From assembly GCA_903887325.1 (NCBI GenBank), contig CAISPG010000131.1, positions 1 to 64,000 of the forward strand: 64,000 nucleotides of DNA, given 5' to 3'. The notes under the pieces are model-generated. The model was given only the letters and a program-made list of their open reading frames with translations, was not told where the DNA came from and ran no database searches. Positions 25,781-61,213 of this stretch are shown in pieces (the stretch's first letter is position 1; the number at the start of each line of letters is the position of its first letter). Origin of the DNA: an uncultured Burkholderiales bacterium (GTDB taxonomy: Bacteria > Pseudomonadota > Gammaproteobacteria > Burkholderiales > Burkholderiaceae_C). The position numbers and the translations under genes were made by a program.

Positions 25781-25923
25781 CCGAAGCAGCAGTTTGCAGG
25801 TGCCGGGTTCGCGTGCTCTTTGCATGCGAAAAACGGTTCATCCGGCCTGCAACTGCGCTATCTGTTGTCACAAACGACGCAGACAATTTCCTGTTTTTAA
25901 TCTGATTCCCCAAGAGGTTGACC

Positions 25924-28026
25924 ATGGCACGCAAGACTCCTATCGAGCGCTATCGCAATATTGGTATTTCTGCGCACATCGATGCGGGCAAAACCACCAC
26001 CACCGAGCGCATTCTTTTTTACACCGGCGTGAACCACAAAATCGGTGAAGTGCACGACGGTGCCGCCACCATGGACTGGATGGAGCAAGAGCAAGAGCGC
26101 GGCATCACCATCACCTCTGCTGCTACCACCTGTTTCTGGAAGGGCATGGATGCCTCTTTCCCCGAGCACCGCATCAACATCATTGACACACCCGGACACG
26201 TGGACTTCACGATTGAAGTCGAGCGCTCTATGCGCGTGCTTGACGGCGCCTGCATGGTGTATTGCGCGGTTGGCGGCGTTCAGCCTCAATCTGAAACTGT
26301 TTGGCGTCAGGCCAACAAATACAGAGTGCCGCGTCTGGCCTTTGTCAACAAAATGGACCGCACTGGTGCCAATTTCTTCAAGGTCTATGACCAGATGAAA
26401 TTGCGTCTCAAAGCCAGCCCTGTGCCTATCGTCATTCCTATTGGTGCTGAAGAAAACTTCACTGGCGTGGTGGATTTGCGCAAAATGAAGGCCATCATTT
26501 GGGACGAAGCTTCTCAGGGCATGAAATTCCGTTTTGAAGAGATTCCTGCGGAATTGCAAGCTGAAGCCAAAAAATGGCGCGAAAACATGGTTGAGGCCGC
26601 TGCAGAAGCGTCCGAAGAACTCATGAACAAATACCTCGAAGAAGGTGATTTGACCGAAGAAGAAATCACCCATGGTTTGCGCGTTCGCACCATTGCCAGT
26701 GAAATCCAGCCTATGTTGTGCGGAACGGCCTTCAAAAACAAGGGCGTTCAACGTATGTTGGATGCGGTCATCGAACTCATGCCTTCGCCCATCGACATCC
26801 CGCCCGTCAAAGGCATGGATGAAGACGAAAAAGAAGTGCACCGCGAAGCTGACGACAAAGAAAAATTCTCTTCATTGGCCTTTAAGTTGATGACCGACCC
26901 GTTTGTCGGCCAACTCACTTTCGTGCGTGTGTATTCAGGCGTGCTGAAAAAAGGCGACACGGTTTACAACCCTATCAAGGGCAAAAAAGAGCGTATCGGC
27001 CGTATCGTGCAAATGCACGCCAACAACCGTGAAGAGGTGGATGAAATTTGCGCCGGCGACATTGCCGCTTGCGTCGGTTTGAAGGACGTGACCACCGGTG
27101 AAACACTGTGTGATCCATCCGCCATTGTCATGCTCGAGCGCATGGTGTTCCCAGAGCCGGTGATCACCCAAGCTGTGGAGCCCAAAACCAAAGCCGACCA
27201 GGAAAAGATGGGCATTGCTTTGCAGCGTTTGGCACAGGAAGACCCGTCTTTCCGCGTCAAGACCGACGAAGAATCCGGCCAGACTTTGATTGCGGGTATG
27301 GGCGAGCTGCACTTGGAAATCATTGTGGATCGCATGAAGCGCGAGTTCGGCGTGGAAGCCAACGTCGGTAAGCCGCAAGTGGCTTACCGCGAAACGATTC
27401 GCAAAACCATTGAAGACAGCGAAGGCAAGTTCGTGCGTCAGTCAGGTGGTAAAGGTCAGTACGGTCATGTGGTGTTCAAAATCGAACCTAACGAAGCCGG
27501 CAAAGGTTTTGAGTTTGTCGACGCCATCAAAGGCGGTGTGGTGCCGCGTGAATACATTCCTGCGGTTGAAAAAGGCGTGATTGAAGCCTTGACCGCCGGT
27601 GTGCTCGCCGGTTATCCGGTGGTCGATGTCAAAGTGACATTGCACTTCGGCTCTTACCACGACGTTGACTCCTCTGAGATGGCGTTCAAAATGGCCGCGA
27701 TCTTCGGCTTCAAAGAAGGCTGTCGCAAGGCCAGTCCTGTCATTCTGGAGCCGATGATGGCTGTGGAAGTGGAAACACCTGAAGACTACGCCGGTAACGT
27801 GATGGGTGATTTGTCCTCACGTCGCGGCATGGTGCAAGGCATGGACGACATGGTCGGCGGCGGCAAAGCGATCAAGGCTGAAGTGCCTTTGTCCGAGATG
27901 TTCGGTTACTCGACTACATTGCGCTCCATGTCGCAAGGTCGCGCCACCTACACCATGGAATTCAAACACTACACCGAAGCCCCGCGCAACGTCGCCGAAG
28001 CGATTGTTGCCGCAAGGGCTAAATAA
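25924..28026 (+). CDS. fusA: Elongation factor G
   Basis: [46 protein letters not shown]. Confidence 0.99.
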
Positions 28027-28032
28027 GTACCT

Positions 28033-28070
28033 GGGGACAGATCAAACCGCTTGCGGTTTGCTCTGTCCCC
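28033..28070 (+). repeat. Nested inverted repeat GGGGACAG-ATC-AAACCGC-TT-GCGGTTT-GCT-CTGTCCCC
   Basis: Two perfect stems (8 and 7 bp) read directly, 6 nt after fusA. Confidence 0.9.
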
Positions 28071-28172
28071 TCTGATTAGACATGGGGGCATGTTGGCCGC
28101 TTGCGGTTTGCTCTGTCCCCTCTGATTAGACATGGGGACATGCTCGCCGCTTGCGGTTTGCTCTGTCCCCTC
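28047..28172. repeat. Tandem repeat, 50-bp period, about 2.5 copies
   Basis: ccgcttgcggtttgctctgtcccctc begins at 28047, 28097 and 28147; the first two copies continue tgattagacatggggNcatg. Confidence 0.93.
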
Positions 28173-28283
28173 AGTTTTCAAGTGTCTGCGACGACGCGCC
28201 GTCCTGTTACCCGTGCGGGACGAACCAGCAGCATCGTGCAGACGTAAAACCTGTACACGGGCCTGTTCTTTGGAGAAAAGACA

Positions 28284-29474
28284 ATGGCAAAAGGCAAATT
28301 TGAGCGGACAAAACCGCACGTCAACGTGGGCACCATCGGCCACGTGGACCATGGCAAGACGACGCTGACGGCGGCGATCACGACGATTTTGTCGGCGAAG
28401 TTTGGCGGCGAAGCCAAGGCTTACGACCAAATTGACGCGGCGCCCGAAGAAAAAGCGCGCGGCATCACGATCAACACGGCACACGTCGAGTACGAGACGG
28501 CTAACCGTCACTACGCGCACGTGGACTGCCCCGGACACGCCGACTATGTGAAAAACATGATCACCGGTGCGGCGCAAATGGACGGTGCGATTTTGGTGTG
28601 CTCGGCCGCTGACGGCCCTATGCCCCAGACCCGCGAGCACATTCTGCTGGCGCGCCAGGTGGGCGTGCCTTACATCATCGTGTTCCTGAACAAGTGCGAC
28701 ATGGTTGACGATGCGGAGTTGCTCGAACTCGTCGAGATGGAAGTGCGCGAGTTGCTCGACAAATACGATTTCCCTGGCGACAGCACACCGATCATCCATG
28801 GCTCAGCCAAGCTGGCCATCGAAGGCGACAAGGGCGAGTTGGGTGAGCTGGCGATTTTGAAGCTGGCTGATGCGCTGGACACTTACATCCCTCTGCCCGA
28901 GCGCGCCATTGACGGTGCGTTTCTGATGCCGGTGGAAGACGTGTTCTCCATCTCCGGTCGCGGCACGGTGGTGACAGGTCGCGTCGAGCGCGGCATCGTC
29001 AAAGTCGGCGAAGAGATCGAGATCGTCGGTATTTCTGACACCGTCAAGACCACCTGTACCGGCGTGGAAATGTTCCGCAAACTGCTGGACCAGGGACAAG
29101 CGGGCGACAACGTCGGTATTTTGTTGCGCGGCACCAAGCGCGAAGACGTGCAGCGCGGCCAAGTGCTGTGCAAGCCCGGTTCGATCAAGCCGCACACGCA
29201 TTTCACCGCTGAGATTTATGTCTTGTCAAAAGACGAAGGCGGGCGCCACACACCGTTCTTCAACAACTACCGCCCGCAGTTTTACTTCCGTACAACGGAC
29301 GTGACCGGTGCGATCGAGTTGCCTGAAGGCAAAGAGATGGTGATGCCTGGCGACAACGTGTCGATCACGGTCAAGCTGATCCACCCGATTGCGATGGAAG
29401 AAGGCTTGCGCTTCGCCATCCGTGAAGGCGGTAAAACCGTCGGTGCCGGTGTGGTTGCCAAAATCATCGCTTAA
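28284..29474 (+). CDS. tuf: Elongation factor Tu
   Basis: [36 protein letters not shown]. Confidence 0.99.
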
Positions 29475-29483
29475 GGAATCAGC

Positions 29484-29798
29484 ATGTCAACCAAACAAAA
29501 AATCCGCATCCGCCTCAAAGCGTTTGATTACAAACTGATCGACCAGTCTGCCGCTGAAATCGTGGACACCGCCAAGCGCACCGGCGCCATCGTCAAAGGC
29601 CCCGTGCCATTGCCGACACGCATGAAGCGTTTTGACATTCTGCGTTCACCGCACGTGAACAAATCCAGCCGTGACCAGTTGGAAATCCGTACACACCAGC
29701 GTTTGATGGACATTGTGGATCCGACTGACAAAACTGTTGATGCTTTGATGAAGCTGGATTTGCCGGCCGGCGTCGACGTCGAAATCAAGCTGCAATAA
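29484..29798 (+). CDS. rpsJ: 30S ribosomal protein S10
   Basis: [30 protein letters not shown]. Confidence 0.98.
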
Positions 29799-59902: not shown

Positions 59903-61075
59903 TCACGCAGTTTGCAAGACCTGCATCAATTCCACCAAGCCAATGGCTTGCGTGCCATGGCGCATTGGAAAACGCTCGGTGCCTGGGTAAACCACAAAGC
60001 GCTGGGTAATGCCTAAATCATCGCAAGCCAGTGCAAAGCCTTTGCTCAAGCTGGGGGTGGTCGAGCGTTTGATTTCAACGGCCATCCAAGGTTTTCCGCC
60101 GCGCTCCAAGACCAAGTCAATTTCAGCCCCCGCATGGGTGCGGTAGGTGTAGGGCGTGACACTGGCTTTGGTGGCCGCCAGCAAGTTGTCGATGCAAAAG
60201 CCTTCATAGCTCAAGCCACACACGGGGTGCCCAGCCACATCGTGAAGATTCTCCAAGCCCAACAGCGCATGAACCAAACCGCTGTCACGCACATACACCT
60301 TGGGTGCTTTCACCAAACGCTTGCCTGTGTTGATGCTCCAGGGGCGCAAGCGGCGAACCAATTGCAAGTCCACCAGCAAATCGATATAGCGCTCCAAAGT
60401 GGGACTGCTGACACCCAAGCCACTGGCCAAGCGGCTTTGCTGTAACAAAGCGCCTTGTTGATGGGCCAGCATGGTCCACAGGCGACCCACGGTTTCAGCA
60501 GGCAAACGAGGGGCGAACATGGGTACATCGCGCTGCAAGTAGCTGCGCACAAAGTCTTCACGCCAGCGCAGGCTGGCGGCCTCATTGGAGGCCAGCAAAC
60601 TGTCTGGAAAACCGCCGCGCAACCAGAGGGTGTCCAGCGCTGTCGATTCCCATTCCAAGGCTTGAATTGGCCCCAAATCCACATAGGCCACGCGCCCGGC
60701 CATTGTTTCACTGCTTTGCTGCATCAAGTCCAGCGAAGCCGAGCCCAACAGCAAAAAATGGCCAAAGCGCTGACCGTCGCGCCGTCGCTCATCAATGATG
60801 CCGCGCAATATCTCAAACAAGCCGGGCATGCGGTGGATCTCATCCAATATCACCAGCTTGCTGCCTTGGGTGCGCAAAAAAGCGTCGGCATCGTCCAGCC
60901 TCAAGCGGTCAGCAGGGCGCTCAAGGTCCAGATAAATGCTGCCCGCTGGCCAGTGTTCTGCCACTTGCAGGGCCAAGGTGGTTTTGCCTACTTGGCGCGG
61001 CCCAAGCAACACCACGGCAGGGGACTCTTGCAGGCGTTGGGTCAGTGTTGAAAGCAATTGACGGGTAATCATCAT
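59903..61075 (-). CDS. AAA family ATPase with DUF4143 C-terminus
   Basis: Walker A LLGPRQVGKTTLALQ; VILDEIHRMPGLFEILRG; DUF4143-like YRTHAGAEIDLVLERGGKPWMAVEIKRS. Confidence 0.93.
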   Translation of the reverse strand: MMITRQLLSTLTQRLQESPAVVLLGPRQVGKTTLALQVAEHWPAGSIYLDLERPADRLRLDDADAFLRTQGSKLVILDEIHRMPGLFEILRGIIDERRRDGQRFGHFLLLGSASLDLMQQSSETMAGRVAYVDLGPIQALEWESTALDTLWLRGGFPDSLLASNEAASLRWREDFVRSYLQRDVPMFAPRLPAETVGRLWTMLAHQQGALLQQSRLASGLGVSSPTLERYIDLLVDLQLVRRLRPWSINTGKRLVKAPKVYVRDSGLVHALLGLENLHDVAGHPVCGLSYEGFCIDNLLAATKASVTPYTYRTHAGAEIDLVLERGGKPWMAVEIKRSTTPSLSKGFALACDDLGITQRFVVYPGTERFPMRHGTQAIGLVELMQVLQTA

Positions 61076-61108
61076 TGAAATTTTAACGGCACACTTTAAA
61101 ATTTCAAT
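61074..61108. promoter_or_regulatory. Perfect inverted repeat ATTGAAATTTTAA-N9-TTAAAATTTCAAT at the ATPase start codon
   Basis: 13-bp perfect arms, 9-nt spacer. Confidence 0.8.
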
Positions 61109-61213
61109 GTATTTTTAAATAATTAAATACCAATGTACTCCTGACACCCCGTTGTCCGTAGCCCTCAGGCAAAGTCCTTTCCTGTGCGCAGACGGTCTGT
61201 GCACATTCAAAGG

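Follow-up and report, generated by a model that had tools for sequence, protein, structure and literature searches.

The question raised by this locus is what a run of palindromic repeats is doing between fusA and tuf. The window (the whole stretch of 64,000 nucleotides analysed here) comes from a bacterium that we take to be a freshwater Limnohabitans, with a draft assembly of 2.47 Mb in 142 contigs. As tuf begins at 28284 and is followed by rpsJ, the site lies at the junction between the str and S10 operons, and the first hairpin starts 6 nt past the fusA TAA. The earlier note took the repeats for a REP/BIME-like element that might also influence the fusA mRNA and the expression of tuf. The array is real, unusual and locus-specific, and we read it, with a probability of roughly 0.5, as an RNA stem-loop in the str mRNA, peculiar to its lineage and tied to this locus, that marks the fusA mRNA off from the tuf mRNA.

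The architecture of the array agrees with the earlier description in its main lines: a hairpin directly after fusA is followed by further copies of its 24-nt right half, CCGCTTGCGGTTTGCTCTGTCCCC, whose three occurrences, at 28047, 28097 and 28147, lie at exact 50-bp intervals. What has to be revised is the idea that the later copies are bare right halves, as each of units 2 and 3 also has a left arm, though a weaker one (GGGGGCATGTTGGCCGC and GGGGACATGCTCGCCGC), and the repeat unit is therefore the whole hairpin. Each unit consists of a 37–38-nt hairpin and a 13-nt linker, and the three are arranged head to tail in one orientation, 50 bp apart (Table 1). In unit 1, GGGGACAG ATC AAACCGC TT GCGGTTT GCT CTGTCCCC, the ATC and GCT segments form A-U and C-G pairs flanking a single T.C mismatch, not a 3x3 loop. 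This unit ranks first among the inverted repeats of the window and ties for the best (17 of 18 pairs) in a 450-kb sample covering 18% of the genome; the array itself has a TRF score of 231, well above both remaining arrays of the window. Elsewhere in the window, at 61073-61109, the arms CATTGAAATTTTAA and TTAAAATTTCAATG form a perfect inverted repeat of 14 bp, separated by 9 nt. When the stretch 28027-28190 is folded as RNA, the predicted energy is -90.8 kcal/mol (z = -9.7 relative to dinucleotide-shuffled sequences), and in such folding the three units can cross-pair into a single long structure, while the tuf leader that adjoins them folds independently of the array.

Table 1. Features of the fusA-tuf region, in window coordinates
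Feature	Position	Strand	Description	Basis
fusA (EF-G)	25918..28026	+	TAA stop 28024-28026	ORF list
Hairpin unit 1	28033..28070	+	18-bp arms, 2-nt loop, one T.C mismatch, -27.2 kcal/mol	homologs in congeners
50-bp tandem array	28047..28172	+	2.5 copies in register	TRF
Hairpin unit 2	28084..28120	+	outer GGGGGC/GTCCCC, inner CCGC/GCGG, middle degenerate, -18.6 kcal/mol	
Hairpin unit 3	28134..28170	+	outer GGGGAC/GTCCCC, inner CCGC/GCGG, middle degenerate, -20.3 kcal/mol	
Structured tuf leader RNA	28182..28283	+	nested stem 28183-28244 plus pseudoknot; adjoins the array, not part of it	covariation, model R1
Pseudoknot strand CCCGTG	28210..28215	+	apical loop of leader	covariation
Pseudoknot partner CACGGG	28256..28261	+	just upstream of tuf ribosome-binding site	covariation
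tuf (EF-Tu)	28284..29474	+	rpsJ next at 29484	ORF list

A search of the same genome for dispersed relatives of the array found no second match to the whole stretch, and the 18-mer of unit 1, allowing up to three mismatches, returned one poor other site with 3 mismatches in 18. A genome-wide REP family of the array's sequence was accordingly rejected, the sequence being confined to 28033-28170 without a good second site. On a larger scale, 84,980 genomes were scanned for the 17-base core GCGGTTTGNTCTGTCCCC, which was found in 22 stretches: its matches in the window's genus come from six records, every one of them situated between fusA and tuf, and the hairpin is absent at three other matches that were inspected (records named Klebsiella, Marinobacterium and Photobacterium). 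A looser core, GAYCAA...TTGCTC with a free middle, gave about 150 matches in seven genomes, six of them with at least seven inner pairs, and four of these six are fusA-tuf hairpins; two matches outside the locus (G053 C267 and G089 C15) were discarded as candidate dispersed palindromes, their outer arms being unpaired. The hairpin sequence was unmatched in phage and plasmid collections, and the 17-base pattern was matched exactly twice in IMG/VR. A literature search, limited to open-access papers and hence weak evidence, returned nothing on the fusA-tuf region in Limnohabitans.

The genome does possess the kind of system that the earlier note looked to, namely a RAYT and a REP-like family, and the array's sequence is not among the members. 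There is one RAYT-like Y1 transposase gene (C125; PF01797, 59.9 bits), and a REP-like family, GGGGTCAGGTTCCAA, with 24 matches in the genome (20 exact and 4 with one mismatch; 0 for the reversed control), sits on both sides of it (C125:110318 region, L027/L193) and at about 20 further sites. Several copies are inverted doublets 41–46 bp apart, of which GGGGTCAGGTTCCAATTAATTTAATTGGAACATGACCCC forms a hairpin with 17 of 18 positions paired, resembling the fusA-tuf hairpin in size and in its GGGG...CCCC ends. Several doublets stand at contig ends (C7, C10, C42, C56), so the copy number of the family is probably underestimated. The fusA-tuf hairpin was considered as a member of this family and set aside on account of its different sequence. 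In REP elements a GT(A/G)G head adjoins the palindrome (PMC2817692); no GTAG or GTGG head is present beside the palindrome here, where the flanks are GTACCT and TCTGATT. Because it occupies a single locus, has all its copies in the same orientation and has no GTAG head, the array is not a REP/BIME by membership.

Descent from such an element is nonetheless possible, given a 13-nt identity with a RAYT 3' end and a similar hairpin size. In several congeners the 3' end of the RAYT bears GGGGACAGATCAA after an A/T-rich stretch, and these 13 nt are identical to the first arm in the window and G089 only, other species having ACC or AGC for ATC; the comparison was post hoc, and a 13-mer is expected by chance about 0.07 times per genome of such size under equal base use. 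The same RAYT 3' end (L193 1440-1510, and other loci among L194-L221) also has two GGGG-motifs in the same orientation, GGGGTCAGRT and GGGGACAGAT, at a distance of about 49 bp, near the 50-bp period of the fusA-tuf array. A link between the hairpin and the presence of a RAYT was considered and rejected: almost the whole genus has RAYT-like genes, which were found in 74 of 84 congeners regardless of the hairpin, and no association is visible.

The history of the site can be followed among relatives, where 84 genomes of the genus yielded 51 fusA 3' ends and, once G001 and G083 (leader absent after fusA) had been set aside, 49 fusA-tuf spacers including that of the window. Homologous hairpins occur in 11 of these genomes, the window's included, always in the same orientation after fusA. 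Copy number, which the earlier note had proposed to compare, varies from one to four: G097 has four units, the window and G053 three and G022 two, with single units in G047, G024, G089, G051, G056, G070 and G017. These changes probably occur by replication slippage. The three hairpins of G053 (L107 287-439) occupy the same fusA-tuf site with a different arm sequence and a period of 52, and because both arms and period differ it seems probable that arrays arose at least twice. Non-homologous hairpins are found at the spot in G016, G043/G086/G073, the G042 group, G023, G088 and the G078 group, as well as in other genera, and canonical intrinsic terminators with a T-run lie between fusA and tuf in G076, G059 and L170 of another genus. 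At L170, L111 and L106, canonical T-run terminators stand upstream of an intact tuf leader. The hairpin is wholly absent in many congeners (G062, for example), and since these include the close relatives G015, G081, G010 and G020, it must be dispensable. In a tree from 300 bp of fusA, in which several forks are weak, the carriers do not form one clade, which points to gains, losses or both.

The arms of the hairpins co-vary. In a count indexed by hand from both ends (11 hairpins by 18 positions), standard pairs occupy 181 of 198 cells, and six of the 18 positions (3, 5, 14, 15, 16 and 17) show two-sided changes with pairing kept, each with two or three kinds of standard pair; at position 3, for instance, G-C is replaced by U-A in G056 and G053. 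An automatic count over all 19 units gave a weak pair signal, owing to a register error in the alignment of the inner stems of G053 and G017. Such co-variation could also come from template-switch mutation without selection, as switching between arms can alter both at once, an effect known for quasipalindromes (PMC7202029). A pyrimidine mismatch at position 10 (C.C, U.C or C.U) is, however, retained in 10 of the 11 hairpins, and as template switching tends to erase a mismatch, its persistence in this small set of related sequences would argue mildly against switching as the sole cause.

What might the hairpins do? Action at the RNA level, in the mRNA, seems most likely because orientation and place after fusA are fixed, pairing is kept, and terminators stand at the same spot in relatives. 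In the mechanism we propose, a stem-loop that follows the fusA stop codon and precedes the conserved tuf leader would have been tandemly expanded, probably via replication slippage, to three units in the window's species; once transcribed, the array would fold into one or several long hairpins separate from the leader, and these could block 3' exonucleases, serve as a double-strand processing site, or both; they might also cause a degree of pausing or incomplete termination. Of the possible functions, those put forward in the earlier note (stalling, protection or termination of the fusA mRNA, with tuf expression uncoupled) are still the best guess. Promoters within fus provide E. coli tufA with additional transcription (PMC10931766), and similar promoters in Limnohabitans would make a boundary between fusA and tuf tolerable.

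Were the hairpins instead a transcription attenuator, ending part of transcription after fusA and so setting the ratio of EF-G to EF-Tu, their strength and GC-richness would be expected, as would the canonical terminators at the same place in G076, G059 and L170. We nevertheless regard this as unlikely: a terminator scan of the window's spacer called none, and none of the three stems directly precedes a T-run, being followed by TCTGATT, TCTGATT and TCAGTTTT, respectively. The spacer also yielded no promoter-like site. With the T-run missing, we favour protection of the fusA 3' end or a processing site over intrinsic termination. That near-perfect palindromes are repeated in one orientation might suggest an element acting as DNA, bound by a protein or extruded as a cruciform independently of the mRNA, but the fixed orientation and position after fusA speak against it, as does the replacement of arm sequence with pairing kept, since a site recognised by a protein should conserve its sequence; we consider this very unlikely.

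The replacement of arm sequence while pairing stays also weighs against a fossil REP, that is, a RAYT-mobilised palindrome that landed once between fusA and tuf in an ancestor, was inherited, diverged and was duplicated by slippage, with no function for the host. This possibility, which we think conceivable but not likely, draws on the GGGGACAGATCAA shared by the first arm and the RAYT 3' end of several congeners, on the equal size and similar ends of the GGGGTCAGGTTCCAATTAATTTAATTGGAACATGACCCC doublet, and on the patchy presence of the hairpin among congeners, but dispersed copies are absent from every genome searched, RAYT-like genes occur irrespective of the hairpin, and the 13-nt match is confined to the window and G089. 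An assembly artefact or collapsed repeat, the outcome by which the earlier note's reading was to fall, might be suspected in so fragmented a draft, but is hardly credible when a separately assembled relative (L041/L079) shows four copies, again at a 50-bp period, and others have one or two.

The neighbouring tuf leader is the better supported structure and a stronger discovery than the array. Among the 39 leaders compared within the genus, 96.5% of cells are paired and 14 pairs show two-sided changes; with eight leaders of other genera added, the values are 96.0% and 18 pairs, and none of 500 shuffles reached as high a pairing, slid controls being far lower. Covariation of the pseudoknot is seen at columns 30-82 in 2 sequences and at 32-79 in 3, the cross-genus alignment having been fitted to the nested model and not to the pseudoknot. 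Searched across 300 genomes of the order, model R1 found one match each in nine, every one of them from the window's family, and it matched eight of nine other sampled genomes of that family. For the eight matches outside the genus, fusA lies upstream in all and tuf directly downstream in seven, the eighth (L168) being a short locus. The leader has been found only in Comamonadaceae, in an order-wide search whose strict filters may miss weak relatives outside the family. No Rfam 15 family matches the region, the only hit being to a miRNA family and put down to chance, at 19 bits against a gathering score of 140, and the open-access literature search (weak evidence, again) returned no tuf leader of such kind. 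Our guess is that its regulator is EF-Tu or a ribosomal protein.

It is tempting to go further and speculate that leader and array make up one control region for EF-Tu expression in Comamonadaceae, in which the leader would sense EF-Tu or a ribosomal protein while hairpin copy number would tune read-on from fusA to tuf, adjusting the EF-G to EF-Tu ratio, but we think this improbable. A series of hairpin copy numbers between two very highly expressed genes would in any case be a natural test of whether intercistronic stem-loops set mRNA ratios, and the covarying, pseudoknotted leader offers a direct way to ask whether tuf in this family is under the control of EF-Tu or of a ribosomal protein.

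Among known systems, the array resembles REP, BIME and REPIN sequences with their RAYT, or TnpA-REP (PMC2817692, PMC3116915), in being a short intergenic palindrome of REP size in a RAYT-bearing genome, with 13 nt identical to a RAYT 3' end. It differs in that each genome has it at a single locus, at an orthologous position across species, as opposed to the tens to hundreds of copies of a REP, in lacking the GTAG/GTGG head, and in running head to tail where BIMEs alternate in orientation. It is like an intrinsic terminator or intercistronic attenuator in placing a strong GC-rich hairpin right after a stop codon, where some relatives have true terminators, and unlike one in having up to four tandem units and no T-run. 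The tuf leader, for its part, has a different, pseudoknotted structure from the known leaders of the str operon, has been found in one family only and without an Rfam match, and precedes tuf as opposed to rpsL, rpsG or fusA. With those leaders (the uS7 site of rpsL-rpsG in E. coli, PMC10931766; the Pelagibacter rpsL motif, PMC2704228; and the rpsL/fusA leaders, PMC2965389) it has in common that it is a structured RNA within the rpsL-rpsG-fusA-tuf operon.
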